A model generated the notes under the pieces. That model was not told the DNA's origin. It did not search any database and saw only the letters and a program-made list of their open reading frames with translations. A stretch of 64,000 nucleotides of DNA from Methylocapsa sp. D3K7 (GTDB taxonomy: Bacteria; Pseudomonadota; Alphaproteobacteria; Rhizobiales; Beijerinckiaceae). How positions within the stretch are numbered: position 1 is the stretch's first letter; every line of letters starts with the position of its first letter. Both the position numbers and the translations under genes were made by a program. Shown here in pieces: positions 5,983 to 38,388 of the stretch. Where the stretch lies: positions 1,364,001 through 1,428,000 of the forward strand of contig NZ_CP123229.1 in assembly GCF_029855125.1 (NCBI RefSeq). The letters run 5' to 3'.

Positions 5983-6095
5983 GCCTTTTCTGCGCCGCTA
6001 TTTTGACACCGTCGTGGCAGGAACCAACGCGCAAAATTGCCGTTCCTGCGGAGCCTTCGCGCTGGCTGAGGCAGCAGATCCAGGGGAGAACGCAT

Positions 6096-6428
6096 ATGCA
6101 TGGCACCGATATCGACATGAAACACTGTATCGACGCGTGTTTGACTTGTTACCAAATGTGCCTATCGACAGCCATGGGGCATTGCTTAGAGCAGGCGGAC
6201 AACATACCGAACAAAAGCACTTCAGCTTGATGATGGCATGCGCCGAAATGTGCAGGACGTCGGCGCATATCATGGTGATCGGCTCGGAGCTGCACAAACG
6301 CACCTGCCGCTTGTGCAGCGAGATTTGTGAACAATGCGCAGCCGATTGCGACCGCATGGGGGATATGAAAGAATGCGCGGATACGTGCCGCCTCTGCGCC
6401 GAAAGCTGCAAAAAAAATGGCAGCTTGA
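6096..6428 (+). pseudogene. csp: Four-helix-bundle copper-storage protein (Csp/DUF326), two frameshifts
   Basis: Reading from ATG 6096, which has an AGGGGAGA ribosome binding site, the first frame gives HGTDIDMKHCIDACLTCYQM with the Cys-rich pattern of cytosolic copper-storage proteins. Near 6187-6193 one base is missing, and the protein continues one frame back ([37 protein letters not shown]). At 6410-6417 a run of eight A has one base too many; removing it restores the original frame and the usual family ending KKMAA, stop at 6426. Csp proteins bind many Cu(I) ions through cysteines lining a helical bundle. As written, the gene makes only a 44-residue stub. Two opposite one-base errors could also be assembly mistakes. 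Confidence 0.8.
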
Positions 6429-35018: not shown

Positions 35019-35034
35019 TGGCCCGCTACGTGCT
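35019..35034 (+). promoter_or_regulatory. Candidate sigma-54 promoter of nasTS
   Basis: TGGCCC-N5-GTGCT has the required GG-N10-GC spacing (GG 35020-35021, GC 35032-35033) and differs from the TGGCAC-N5-TTGCT consensus at two positions. Transcription would start about 20 bases before the nasT start codon. It is weaker than the site ahead of nrtA. Confidence 0.4.
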
Positions 35035-35064
35035 AGTTGGAAATCATCGACTTAGGGAGCTTTG

Positions 35065-35649
35065 TTGAGCCGGGATCTGCGCATTGCCGTTATCGACAAG
35101 AATCCGCTGCGCGCGGCGATTCTCGAGGAAGGCTTGCGCGCGGCTGGCCACATGAGCGTCACGCACATCGACGATACGGCGGACCTTCTCGATCGTATTC
35201 ACGCGATCGATCCCGATGTCATCCTGATCGATCTTGAAAGCCCGAGCCGCGACGTGCTCGAACAAATGTTCAAAATGAGCCGTTCGGTCGCCCGGCCGAT
35301 CGCCATGTTCGTCGACCGCTCCGACACGGGGATGATCGATGCCGCGATCGATGCAGGAGTTTCGGCCTATATTGTCGATGGCCTCCGCAGTGACCGGGTG
35401 AAGCCGATTCTTGACACGACGATCAGCCGGTTCAACGCCTTTGCCAAGCTCAAGAAGGAACTTGAAACGGCAAAGTCACAGCTCGAGGACCGGAAAGTCA
35501 TCGACCGGGCCAAGGCACTGGTCATGCGCGCCAAGTCGATTCCGGAAGAGCAAGCCTACGCCCTCATGCGCCAGGTGGCGATGAATGAAGGCAAAAAGAT
35601 CGCCGACGTTGCACGGTCCATCATCACCGCCGCGGAGTTATTGGGATGA
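35065..35649 (+). CDS. nasT: Nitrate-responsive ANTAR antiterminator NasT
   Basis: This 194-residue protein has an N-terminal pseudo-receiver domain (LRIAVIDKNPLRAAILEEGL, then DVILIDLESPSRD with the Asp position). A coiled linker follows (KLKKELETAKSQLEDRKVID), and then a C-terminal ANTAR RNA-binding domain (RAKALVMRAKSIPEEQAYAL, MRQVAMNEGKKIADVARSI). NasT binds paired hexaloop hairpins in leader RNAs and prevents termination when nitrate releases it from NasS. A TTG start is used; of two adjacent TTGs, 35065 is better spaced from the AGGGAG box. It overlaps nasS by four bases. Confidence 0.93.
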   Translation: MSRDLRIAVIDKNPLRAAILEEGLRAAGHMSVTHIDDTADLLDRIHAIDPDVILIDLESPSRDVLEQMFKMSRSVARPIAMFVDRSDTGMIDAAIDAGVSAYIVDGLRSDRVKPILDTTISRFNAFAKLKKELETAKSQLEDRKVIDRAKALVMRAKSIPEEQAYALMRQVAMNEGKKIADVARSIITAAELLG

Positions 35650-36782
35650 CGCAAAGGCTGCGGATCGGATATGTGCCTCTCACGGACGCTGCGTTGCTTC
35701 ACGTCGTAAAAGCCCAGAATCTGACCGGTAAATACGGGCTCGGCATTGAACTCATTGCCGAATCCTCCTGGGCCAATATCCGTGACAAGCTCGTCGCGGG
35801 CCATTTCGACGCGGCACATATGCTGGCGCCGGCCGCCATTGCGGTCTCGCTCGGCGCCGGACAAATCGAGGCGCCGTTGATAGCGCCGGTAGCCCTTGGC
35901 CTGAACGGAAATGCCTTCACGGTCTCAAATGCCCTATTTGAAGCTCTGCTGCGTGAGGTGCAGGGCGATATGTCCGATCCCCGCGTCACCGCCAGGGCGC
36001 TTGCTAGGATCATGGCACGGCGCCGCGAAAAGGCGGAGCCGCAACTCACATTTGGCCATGTTTTTCCCTTTTCCAGTCATCATTACCAATTGCGCCTGTG
36101 GTTGCGGGCCGGTCACATTGATCCGGACGAAGATGTCAGACTTGTTGTCGTGCCTCCCCCTTTCATGGCCGAGACCTTACGCAAGGGACAATTGGACGGT
36201 TTTTGTGTCGGGGCGCCCTGGAATTCGGTCGCGGTGGCGGCGGGCGCCGGGATCATCCTTCATCAAGGCACCGATATTGTCCGCGATTGCCCAGAAAAGG
36301 TATTGGCCTTCCGGACAGAATGGGCGCGTACGCATAAAGAGGAGGTCGGCGCCCTCGTGGAAGCGATCGGCGGCGCATCGCGCTGGGCGTCGTCGTCAAG
36401 CAACCGGAATGCCCTCGTGACGCTACTTACGGCAACGGCTGGGCAAGATGTTCCGGCCGCGACAATCGAAAGAATCCTAGGAGATCCAGCCTCTCCGTCG
36501 GCCTCTCCGCTCGTCGCCACCGGCTTGCGGCTCGATGAAGAGGCCATCAAAGCCAGTCCAATCCAGGCACTTTGGCTCTATGCCCAGATGGTGGCAGCTG
36601 GACAGATCACGTATTCGGACGCTTTTGCGGCAGCGGCGGCGGCCGTCTACGAGCCAACTCCAGGATCCTCGATCCCGCCGAACCACGCCGCCACGCCCGC
36701 CGTCTTCGACGCTCCTGTGTTTTCCGCGAATGACATCCCCTCTTACCTTGCGTCCCTGAACCCCAGCGGGACGAACGATTAA
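35646..36782 (+). CDS. nasS: Nitrate sensor NasS (NrtA-like, cytoplasmic)
   Basis: This 378-residue protein resembles the NrtA/CmpA nitrate-binding fold (RIGYVPLTDAALLHVVKAQN, AHMLAPAAIAVSLG, GHVFPFSSHHYQLRLWLRAG, GFCVGAPWNSVAVAAGAG). It lacks the signal peptide of NrtA, so it stays in the cytoplasm. In the known NasS/NasT systems it holds NasT inactive until nitrate or nitrite binds. It begins within the nasT stop (ATGA), as expected for a stoichiometric pair. Confidence 0.93.
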   Translation: MTQRLRIGYVPLTDAALLHVVKAQNLTGKYGLGIELIAESSWANIRDKLVAGHFDAAHMLAPAAIAVSLGAGQIEAPLIAPVALGLNGNAFTVSNALFEALLREVQGDMSDPRVTARALARIMARRREKAEPQLTFGHVFPFSSHHYQLRLWLRAGHIDPDEDVRLVVVPPPFMAETLRKGQLDGFCVGAPWNSVAVAAGAGIILHQGTDIVRDCPEKVLAFRTEWARTHKEEVGALVEAIGGASRWASSSSNRNALVTLLTATAGQDVPAATIERILGDPASPSASPLVATGLRLDEEAIKASPIQALWLYAQMVAAGQITYSDAFAAAAAAVYEPTPGSSIPPNHAATPAVFDAPVFSANDIPSYLASLNPSGTND

Positions 36783-36917
36783 ATTTCATGCACTGCACAA
36801 TAAGTATGCGGCGCGGGTAGTGGTTGAGCAGATTGCGGCTTGATAAATCAACCTGCAGCACGATGGATGCGATGCTTTGTCAAACCCGCAAGAGGGGAGA
36901 ATGCCGCGTAGGAGGTT

Positions 36918-36933
36918 TGGCACATAGCTTGCT
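36918..36933 (+). promoter_or_regulatory. Sigma-54 promoter of the nrtA operon
   Basis: TGGCAC-N5-TTGCT is a full match to the RpoN -24/-12 consensus, with GG at 36919-36920 and GC at 36931-36932 (N10 between). The start of transcription would fall near 36945, just before the first leader hairpin. This implies activation by an enhancer-binding protein, most likely NtrC under nitrogen limitation. I found no clear palindromic NtrC site upstream. Confidence 0.85.
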
Positions 36934-36947
36934 TCTCTATAACCACA

Positions 36948-36990
36948 GACCGGCTCCCTACGGTCTTTTCTGGGTCCAATGATGGGCCTG
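36948..36990 (+). promoter_or_regulatory. ANTAR-type paired hairpins in the nrtA leader
   Basis: There are two consecutive stems. The first is AGACCG / CGGTCT (36948-36967) with an eight-base loop GCTCCCTA. The second is GGGTCC / GGGCCT (about 36972-36989) with the six-base loop AATGAT. The second loop has A at position 1 and G at position 4, the signature of ANTAR target RNAs. The first does not fit the hexaloop rule as written, unless a G-A mismatch closes it. Both precede an intrinsic terminator. Confidence 0.65.
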
Positions 36991-37003
36991 GGCATCCAGC
37001 AAC

Positions 37004-37052
37004 GCCGCTGACTGGCCTTCACTCTGTGTGGGTCCGCCAGCGGCTTTTTTTT
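37004..37052 (+). terminator. Leader terminator (attenuator) of the nrtA operon
   Basis: GCCGCTG (37004-37010) pairs with CAGCGGC (37038-37044) and is followed by eight T (37045-37052). The AAGGAG ribosome binding site of nrtA begins only a few bases later, so this hairpin stops transcription before the operon unless it is prevented. It is the expected target of NasT antitermination. Confidence 0.85.
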
Positions 37053-37068
37053 GGCAAGGAGCCAACGT

Positions 37069-38388
37069 ATGAACGCTAAGACTCTGACCGAAGTGGCCGG
37101 ACTGACACGCCGCTCATTCATTGGTTCGACCGCTAGCCTTGGCGGCACCGCCGCGCTCACCCTGGCCGCGCAGAGCGCGTTTCCGGCCGGTGTTTTCGCC
37201 GAAACAGCCGGCCCTGAGGTGACGAAAGTGGTCCTCGGCTTCATCGCACTGACCGATGCCGCCCCCCTGATCATCGCCAAGGAAAAAGGTCTGTTCGATA
37301 AGCATGGGCTGACCGGCGTCGAAGTCAATAAGCAAGCTTCGTGGGGCGCTACGCGGGACAATCTCGTCCTTGGCTCGGAGTCAAATGGGATTGACGGGGC
37401 ACATATCCTCTCGCCGATGCCCTATCTGATCTCGGCCGGCAAGGTCACGCAAAACAACGTGCCGGTGCCGATGTATCTCCTCGCGCGGCTCAATTACGAC
37501 AGCCAGGGAATCTCGGTTTCCAATGAATATAAGGATTCAAAAGCCGGTCTCGATTCCGCGCCGCTAAAAGAGATCTTCGCCAAGAAGAAAGCCGACGGCA
37601 AGGATGTGAAGATCGCCATGACGTTCCCGGGCGGCACCCATGATTTGTGGATCCGCTATTGGCTCGCCGCCGGCGGCATCGACCCCGACAAGGACGTATC
37701 CACGATCGTTGTGCCGCCGCCGCAGATGGTGGCCAATATGAAGGTCGGCAATATGGATGCCTTCTGTGTCGGCGAGCCGTGGAACGAGCAACTCGTCAAC
37801 CAGGGAATTGGATTTACAGCCTGCACGACGGGCGAAATCTGGAAGCGGCACCCCGAAAAAGCACTCGGTATGCGGGCCGCTTGGGTCGATAAAAATCCAA
37901 AAGCCGCGAAGGCCGTTCTCATGGCCGTGATGGAAGCGCAGCAATGGTGCGACAAAACTGAAAACAAAGAAGAAATGGCGGCAATTCTCGGTAAGCGCCA
38001 ATGGTTCAACGTTCCCACCGCCGACGTGCTCGGCCGGCTGAAGGGAGATATCAACTACGGCAATGGCCGGGTTGCAAAAGGCACTGGCCTGCAGATGAAA
38101 TTCTGGGCGGGCGGGGTGTCCTATCCGTTCAAGAGCCATGATACATGGTTCGTGGCCGAGGATATCCGTTGGGGCAAGTTCGAACCTTCGACCGATATCA
38201 AGGCGCTGGTCGATAAGGTCAACCGCGAGGATCTTTGGCGCGATGCCGCCAAGGCGCTTAATGCGAGCGCGGCTGACGTGCCGAAATCAACGTCGCGCGG
38301 CAAGGAGACCTTCTTCGACGGAAAGGTCTTCGATCCGGCAAACCCTTCCGAATATCTGAAAAGCCTTGCGATCAAGCGGGTCGCATGA
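37069..38388 (+). CDS. nrtA: Nitrate ABC transporter, substrate-binding protein
   Basis: This 439-residue protein has a Tat-type signal (LTRRSFIGSTASLGGTAAL). The mature NrtA/CmpA fold shows KVVLGFIALTDAAPLIIAKE, GTHDLWIRYWLAAGGIDPDK, VVPPPQMVANMKVGNMDAF and CVGEPWNEQLVNQ. It captures nitrate (perhaps nitrite) in the periplasm for the NrtBC complex. ATG 37069 follows the AAGGAG box at 37056-37061. It is the first gene of a seven-gene operon controlled by the leader just upstream. Confidence 0.95.
   Translation: MNAKTLTEVAGLTRRSFIGSTASLGGTAALTLAAQSAFPAGVFAETAGPEVTKVVLGFIALTDAAPLIIAKEKGLFDKHGLTGVEVNKQASWGATRDNLVLGSESNGIDGAHILSPMPYLISAGKVTQNNVPVPMYLLARLNYDSQGISVSNEYKDSKAGLDSAPLKEIFAKKKADGKDVKIAMTFPGGTHDLWIRYWLAAGGIDPDKDVSTIVVPPPQMVANMKVGNMDAFCVGEPWNEQLVNQGIGFTACTTGEIWKRHPEKALGMRAAWVDKNPKAAKAVLMAVMEAQQWCDKTENKEEMAAILGKRQWFNVPTADVLGRLKGDINYGNGRVAKGTGLQMKFWAGGVSYPFKSHDTWFVAEDIRWGKFEPSTDIKALVDKVNREDLWRDAAKALNASAADVPKSTSRGKETFFDGKVFDPANPSEYLKSLAIKRVA

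Follow-up and report, generated by a model that had tools for sequence, protein, structure and literature searches.

The stretch of DNA analysed here, 64,000 nt from Methylocapsa sp. D3K7 (contig NZ_CP123229.1, positions 1,364,001 to 1,428,000; hereafter the window, whose own numbering is used), contains a nitrate gene cluster preceded by its probable regulatory genes and a structured leader. All features of the window described below lie on the forward strand. The first regulatory gene, nasT (35062..35649, with a TTG start codon at 35062), codes for a REC-ANTAR antiterminator that accounts for the only ANTAR match in the whole genome. Next to it is nasS (35646..36782), whose NMT1_2-family product is, judging from its homologs, a probable nitrate/nitrite sensor. 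A 286 bp intergenic gap then leads to nrtA (37069..38388; named by inference), which opens with an ATG that can be read directly at 37069, codes for an NMT1_2 binding protein and is the first gene of the controlled cluster. An ABC permease and an ATPase complete what we take, by inference, to be nrtABC; the cluster further includes genes for a pyridine-nucleotide oxidoreductase, a nitrite/sulphite-reductase-family protein, a flavin reductase with an iron-sulphur domain and a molybdopterin oxidoreductase. In 5′ to 3′ order, the gap between nasS and nrtA displays a dyad, a sigma-54 site, three stems, an intrinsic terminator with eight T and a Shine-Dalgarno sequence. We interpret this arrangement as a transcription attenuator under NasS/NasT control that follows an NtrC/sigma-54 promoter, a reading of the sequence to which we assign a probability of about 0.87.

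Anatomy of the leader

The core of the leader consists of two hairpins and a terminator. The first ANTAR hairpin, P1 (GGGTCC[AATGAT]GGGCCT, 36972..36989), is supported by its fold, its conservation and the covariance model R2 described below, and the second, P2, is CAGC[AACGCC]GCTG (36997..37010). Both present hexaloops with A at position 1 and G at position 4 (A1/G4), namely AATGAT at 36978-36983 and AACGCC at 37001-37006, and both loops are closed by a directly readable C:G pair (C36977-G36984 and C37000-G37007), which is also the closing pair of the target loops selected by NasR (PMC7496416; here and below, statements from the literature refer to the available parts of each paper). The linker between P1 and P2 is 7 nt (36989 to 36997), or 4 nt if P1 is taken as 9 bp, and so falls within the 2 to 25 nt used as the criterion in a survey of actinobacterial ANTAR targets (PMC8164766). 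The terminator stem (GCCGCTG...CAGCGGC, 37004..37044, -24.5 kcal/mol) is followed by a tract of eight T (37045..37052) and then by the Shine-Dalgarno sequence AAGGAG of nrtA (37056..37061), the last two being direct readings. The 3′ arm of P2 (37007-37010) falls within the 5′ arm of the terminator (37004-37010), making the two structures mutually exclusive. This is the known organization of ANTAR targets, in which P1 stands free and P2 overlaps the terminator (PMC8934654, PMC3369931, PMC7496416), and the two-hairpin motif has been identified for NasT too (PMC7496416). Thus, as far as sequence can tell, P1, P2 and the terminator together are a textbook ANTAR dual-hexaloop target and a new member of this class.

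Folding calculations are consistent with a switch. The 114-nt leader (36944-37057) has a minimum free energy of -48.3 kcal/mol, a value that 199 of 200 dinucleotide shuffles fail to reach (z -2.79). When the RNA ends at 37011, its minimum-free-energy fold includes P2; in the full leader, the structure with the terminator (-48.3 kcal/mol) is better by about 7 kcal/mol than that with P2 forced (-41.2 kcal/mol).

An earlier note on this DNA, made from the letters alone, had described many of these elements, and they are indeed present: nasT and nasS directly upstream, as REC-plus-ANTAR and NMT1_2 genes in that order; a sigma-54 promoter TGGCAC-N5-TTGCT with exact GG-N10-GC spacing (36918-36933); a first stem with an eight-base loop (36947-36966); a second stem with an A1/G4 loop AATGAT, our P1 (36972-36989); and a GC stem with eight T shortly before the ribosome-binding site of nrtA. 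It had, however, joined the first and second stems as the tandem ANTAR pair. The true pair is the second stem together with P2, which overlaps the terminator and had been missed.

Conservation and covariance models

In eight leaders from the window's genus, the best conserved parts are GGTCCAAYG-N2-GGGCC and CAGCAACGCCGCTG, which correspond to P1 and P2, and the terminator forms all of its 12 pairs in each of seven genus leaders. We built the covariance model R2 from 18 leaders, none of them from a genome labelled as belonging to the window's genus; four training records (L181, L194, L204 and L206) are loosely named and could not be placed further. The training leaders have short linkers, and most carry a stem in the spacer before P1. 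Across them, 95.1% of the P1/P2 cells are paired compared to 88.0% in shuffles, and 11 cells show double changes compared to 3.2 (in either case, 0 of 500 shuffles reached as high). In 4 of these 18 leaders, one P2 pair has G-C in place of A-U. R2 recovers the window's leader with 43.4 bits (E 4.6e-6), and nothing else in the 4.15-Mb genome reaches E <= 0.01. Within the window's genus, 10 of the 15 genomes have a match to R2, as do, at E <= 1e-4, 24 of the 297 genomes of the order, the window's genome included.

A second model, R1, scores the window's leader at 59.4 bits and the next match in the genome at 17.7; it contains the window's own leader, and is hence no independent test. Since R1 finds one strong site, we claim no second NasT target or wider regulon in this genome. 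Over the class, R1 matches 12 of 385 genomes at E <= 0.001, again including the window's, and some of these matches (e.g., L166 and L167) resemble chance matches by eye. The search with an ANTAR RNA covariance model suggested in the earlier note yielded nothing usable from Rfam, no family of which matches the leader at its gathering threshold. The narK RNA (RF03032) was considered and set aside: it gives 15.2 bits against a gathering threshold of 43.2, and at E <= 10 matches 13 of 14 control genomes. The RF03032 consensus itself begins with a stretch resembling sigma-54 -24/-12 elements (GGCaCA...CUUGCU-like), so that this 'RNA' model may include promoter DNA.

To collect further leaders, we used a pattern detector that requires a sigma-54 score of at least 16.5 near P1. 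It was run on all loci other than the controls (L009-L030 and L139-L158) and yielded 66 leaders, of which L174- and L163- were removed as spurious; of the 64 left, 50 are nonredundant. In the controls (250,568 bases, both strands) it gave one match, L144, which is the true leader of G005. It misses L008 and L170, whose terminators are irregular, and the search with the P2 pattern had no match in 46 loci. A separate set came from R2, with 19 of the 23 R2-picked loci used further: L267, L268 and L278 were left out for their short spacers, and L274 for having the same spacer as L266. Nine of the 19 come from one genus, the spacer of L276 is identical to that of L195 in the first set, and the search for P1 failed in L281 (0 bp), which leaves the spacer of that locus unsure. 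Alignment A1, which mixed short- and long-linker leaders, misaligned P1 and was not used.

The promoter and its upstream dyad

The sigma-54 promoter TGGCACATAGCTTGCT (36918..36933) shows the consensus TGGCAC-N5-TTGCT, with GG at 36919-36920, N10 and GC at 36931-36932. By our own weights it is the only maximum-score site of the 64-kb window, and none occurs in 20 Markov-shuffled windows. The geometry of such promoters predicts a transcription start (+1) at 36944, one base from the 36945 of the earlier note. A comparable site is present in the leaders of the window's genus. Among the R2-picked loci of the order other than the window, 20 of 23 have a sigma-54 score of at least 17 near P1, and in 20 of 23 the spacer measures 23-37 nt. 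The presence of a promoter is built into the detector set, because the detector demanded a sigma-54 score of at least 16.5; the R2-picked set was not so chosen.

NtrC sites typically lie 100-150 bp upstream of the promoter that they activate. A putative NtrC-type dyad, TGCAC-AATAAGT-ATGCG, is found here at 36794..36810, with its center at about -142 from the predicted start. We scanned the DNA 5′ of 51 leaders (the 50 nonredundant ones plus L002 and L004, less L056, which is too near the end of its locus) for dyads, and a spacing of 7 proved best, with a mean best score of 10.42 compared to 8.89-9.36 for seven other spacings. The best dyad falls inside -145..-138 in 23 of the 51 leaders, where 2.8 would be expected if positions were uniform, and still does so in 16 of 44 once seven of the nine leaders of the window's genus are removed (the remaining two, L007 and L083, both lie outside the counted range). 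In the 19 separately found leaders the dyad is at -145..-138 in 15, comprising seven of nine in the one genus and eight of ten in ten others. The recurrence of sigma-54 sites across the order and the fixed position of the dyad thus support both the predicted start and a nitrogen key. The genome codes for one sigma-54 DNA-binding domain (RpoN) and for one NtrC above the cut-off, with three related regulators falling below it (306-366 bits). As regards the marks of an NtrC-activated promoter, then, the window's dyad is not significant alone, but is positioned as in its relatives, in a genome with ntrC.

A second candidate sigma-54 site, TGGCCCGCTACGTGCT, precedes nasT (35019..35034; predicted +1 at 35045). 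It is weak alone, as 11.1 sites scoring at least 17.5 are expected per shuffled window, and is retained in two of the four relatives compared (G005 and G010). On the strength of this site, nasTS may be under nitrogen control too.

A probable two-key switch and its known counterparts

These features suggest the following mechanism. Under nitrogen shortage, an NtrC protein sitting near -142 would activate RNA polymerase-sigma54 at 36918-36933, and transcription would start near 36944. As the RNA emerges, the extra 5′ stem P0 (considered below), P1 and P2 can, by computation, form in turn, and P2 would be favored for as long as the terminator still lacks its 3′ arm. By analogy with homologous systems, NasS would hold NasT when nitrate is absent, letting the terminator form and stop transcription at 37045-37052, before the ribosome site of nrtA. 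Nitrate would release NasT, which would then bind P1 and P2 at their A1/G4 hexaloops and keep P2 folded, allowing read-through into the nrt/nas genes. Control by two keys, nitrogen need and nitrate, is therefore probable here, as the earlier note had proposed: the sigma-54 site, the dyad, the single RpoN, NtrC and ANTAR proteins and the dual-hexaloop/terminator switch all speak for it at the level of sequence. This logic is not new, having already been published for Klebsiella and Paracoccus.

The nitrate genes nasAB of Azotobacter vinelandii are also said, following Wang's work of 2012, to be controlled by NasT antitermination, as would be the case here. A close structural parallel is the EutV/eutP system of Enterococcus faecalis (PMC8934654, PMC3369931), which likewise combines two A1/G4 hexaloops, the second sharing an arm of the terminator, with a REC-ANTAR protein. 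The window differs from it in its sigma-54/NtrC-type promoter, its likely NasS sensor in place of a kinase and the extra stem P0. The nasABGHC operon of Paracoccus denitrificans (PMC3795266, PMC5424462) resembles the window in having nasTS directly upstream, leader hairpins that separate nasS from the first structural gene and an NtrBC nitrogen key. NasT binds the nasA leader and the NasS-NasT complex separates with nitrate (PMC3795266), and both the hairpin HI and NtrBC matter for Paracoccus nas expression (PMC5424462). In Paracoccus, however, the demonstrated NtrC site lies before nasT, and that of nasA is termed unidentified, whereas the window has a sigma-54 site and NtrC-like dyad before nrtA itself; the hairpins HI and HII are likened to ours by description. 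Klebsiella nasF (PMC5424462, PMC3369931, PMC7496416) shares with the window the combination of Ntr control and nitrate control of a leader terminator via P1-P2 hexaloops. Its NasR is a one-component NIT-ANTAR protein, unlike the separate NasS and NasT of the window, and no P0 is seen for nasF in the available parts of these papers. Leaders with three stems also have partial counterparts in EutX, with an additional hexaloop bearing G4 and more than two hairpins (PMC8934654), and in the mycobacterial PPE1-5′ RNA, which binds PdtaR and has three predicted hairpins (PMC8131098). These two differ in that their described role is to sequester the protein in trans, not to serve as terminator leaders of nitrate genes.

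Several observations weigh against this reading of the locus. First, in the 18 leaders of R2, the excess of double changes is not evident by pair: three pairs show a double change compared to 2.1 in shuffles (155 of 500 as high), and there are eight pair types compared to 8.0. Second, the outer pair of P2 is unpaired in 7 of these 18 leaders outside the genus, and the invariance of P2 in alignment A2 is partly a selection effect, because the loci were picked with the P2 pattern. Third, the detector was negative in 56 of the 80 named nasT loci, including all titled Bradyrhizobium. Fourth, the predicted start is set by sigma-54 geometry, and the window's own dyad is weak (p 0.11 versus shuffles), with an imperfect second half (ATGCG); the window's leader is not among the 17 of 51 in which the dyad reaches p <= 0.05. 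Finally, in a Bradyrhizobium nasT mutant, the expression of narK-bjgb-flp, which has predicted NasT hairpins, rose (PMC6759348), indicating that a predicted NasT hairpin is no guarantee of the expected effect.

The extra 5′ stem

The first stem of the leader, P0 (AGACCG[GCTCCCTA]CGGTCT, 36947..36966), has 6 bp and an 8-nt loop and is supported by its fold and by compensatory changes. The earlier note had taken it for the first ANTAR hairpin, with the eight-base loop as a variant target. As stated, this is rejected: the conserved pair with A1/G4 loops is P1 and P2, and P0 lies upstream of it. The loop GCTCCCTA has no A1/G4 hexaloop and its closing pair is G-C, so that P0 lacks the hallmarks of a canonical ANTAR hairpin. 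Its upstream position, missing A1/G4 and G-C closing pair leave no sign of P0 being a NasT target; such a role is nonetheless conceivable, as a minority of relatives carry an A1/G4 hexaloop at this place.

Among seven leaders of the window's genus (six genomes), four of the six P0 pairs show double changes. On alignment A6, which was not fitted to P0, 92.9% of the P0 cells are paired, a figure that counts three unpaired cells of L006, shifted there by one column; in a register set by hand, 42 of 42 are paired. By the same register, the loops of the seven are 8, 7 or 5 nt long, and none is an A1/G4 hexaloop. CTC recurs in six of the seven, suggesting that the loop is not free to vary. Not all members of the genus have the stem: G002 and G013 are without P0, and their sigma-54-like sites abut P1, while the 27-nt spacer of G014 is not significantly structured (L083, p 0.17). 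P0 is a conserved stem outside the canonical ANTAR pair, and its predicted place is the very 5′ end of the transcript.

Most likely, P0 is a structural element of the 5′ end acting in RNA stability or early folding; it would protect the message or block pairing of the 5′ end with P1/P2, unseen by NasT. We favor this role over that of a changed NasT target, at somewhat less than even odds. The distance from the predicted +1 to P1 in the 50 nonredundant leaders falls into two groups, with 21 at -2..7 nt and 28 at 21-39 nt (one is at 16). Among the spacers of at least 16 nt, 18 of 29 are more stably folded than their shuffles at p <= 0.05 (mean z -2.05), compared to 5 of 29 equally long controls taken 5′ of the promoter (mean z -0.52), the shuffles keeping base composition only. 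The distance groups and the folding together point to a stem usually sitting at the 5′ end when P1 does not, with exceptions, and within the genus the pairing of P0 is kept while its bases change. On the other side, the +1 is a predicted one, 11 of the 29 spacers are not significantly structured (G014 included), and some triple-hexaloop leaders had their first stem taken as P1 by the detector, which blurs the two groups. The CTC of the loops also exceeds what a purely structural stem would need.

It is less probable that P0 is a third, altered NasT target that serves early recruitment, its loop having drifted to eight bases in this genus. This is prompted by leaders with three A1/G4 hexaloop stems, one of which is the first stem. 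Among 44 leaders with room for it, seven carry such a stem beyond P1 and P2, compared to 0.67 expected from shuffles, and the test never yielded more than five when different bases were set at positions 1 and 4 of the loop. In the separately found set, a third A1/G4 hexaloop occurs in 5 of 19 spacers, compared to 0.75 expected and at most four for other base choices, under a looser stem threshold than in the 44-leader test. The leaders in question are L075, L159, L179, L185, L190, L192, L193, L261, L262, L269, L273 and L280; for example, L193 has AAGGAC-AATGGC-AACGTC and L280 has AACGAT-AAGGGC-AAAGCT. Dual stems are described as the rule for ANTAR targets (PMC8934654, PMC3369931, PMC8164766, PMC7496416), and we came across no nitrate leader described as having triple hexaloops, which is weak evidence of absence given that subscription papers were mostly beyond the literature covered. 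The double changes that maintain P0, and its recurrent CTC, would also suit an altered target. Against it, none of the seven genus loops is an A1/G4 hexaloop and two members of the genus do without P0; further, A1 and G4 are both required for NasR control (PMC3369931), and the targets selected by NasR are closed by C:G, with P1P2 alone giving full NasR binding, so that NasR needs no third stem (PMC7496416).

An improbable further role is that the loop region of P0, GGCUCC, pairs with GGAGCC at the nrtA Shine-Dalgarno sequence and thereby adds translational control. Read directly, the GGCTCC of P0 and the GGAGCC at 37058-37063 are fully complementary, CTC recurs in the genus loops, and a translation-level step has been proposed in Paracoccus (PMC5424462); however, in L003 and L006 the complementarity is down to about three bases, the loop of L112 is without CTC and, in a comparison made by eye only, CTC against GGAG is likely a chance match. 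Least plausible of all, and very improbable, is that the leader merely combines an ordinary terminator with spacer stems, nrtA being under another promoter or non-NasT control, in view of the conserved double hexaloop exclusive with the terminator, beside nasTS in a genome with a single ANTAR protein, and of the promoter and dyad similarly placed in leaders of the order.

Distribution and variants of the leader

The leader is also found in front of other genes. In G003 and G005, the leader and an nrtA-like start, some 15-20 codons long by eye, are followed by an MFS transporter instead of nrtABC. The transporter genes lie at L118 4202-5677 and L117 2609-3997, and in L118 the nrtA-like start shares its reading frame with the MFS protein and continues into it. 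In G005 and G006, another P0-bearing leader stands before a porin gene. One such gene, of the Porin_2 family, is at L112 3-919 (minus strand); at about 3000-3400 of L119 (minus strand), a 14-codon nrtA-like start (by eye) precedes a porin-like reading frame split over frames. No nasT, nasS or nrtA matches were found near the porin leaders, in the 3.0 and 13.5 kb fetched. The occurrence before both MFS transporter and porin genes suggests that the leader, P0 included, behaves as a portable unit.

Other leaders show a different layout. In L043, L065, L070, L076, L102-L104 and similar ones, P1 is near the +1, a stem that is not of the A1/G4 type lies between P1 and P2, and the P1-P2 linker reaches about 20 nt or more. 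In EutV-dependent antitermination, 20 nt added to the linker abolished the effect (PMC8934654). A leader of Rhodopseudomonas palustris (L178, about 6010-6100) has a sigma-54-like site and a canonical P2; its first stem, by eye, is long and without an A1/G4 hexaloop.

Implications

The window offers a clean new example of the two-key arrangement, with one ANTAR protein, one strong target and one matching promoter. To the published logic it adds a corrected anatomy, R2 as a working model with which such leaders can be found and a fixed NtrC-like position, as well as a covarying extra 5′ stem that is present or absent within one genus and triple-hexaloop leaders elsewhere in the class. Structural work on EutV has led to the proposal that a dimer binds P1 first before moving on to P2 (PMC8934654); the triple-hexaloop leaders and the pairs with and without P0 would be natural test objects for this model. 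We also entertain, tentatively and as a doubtful generalization, that many alphaproteobacterial NasT leaders are three-stem devices, with a usual stem at the 5′ end of a sigma-54 transcript and an NtrC site at about -142, the extra stem being a canonical hexaloop in some, changed in the window's leader and missing in others. If true, the extra stem would tune the recruitment of NasT or the life of the leader, resulting in graded antitermination.

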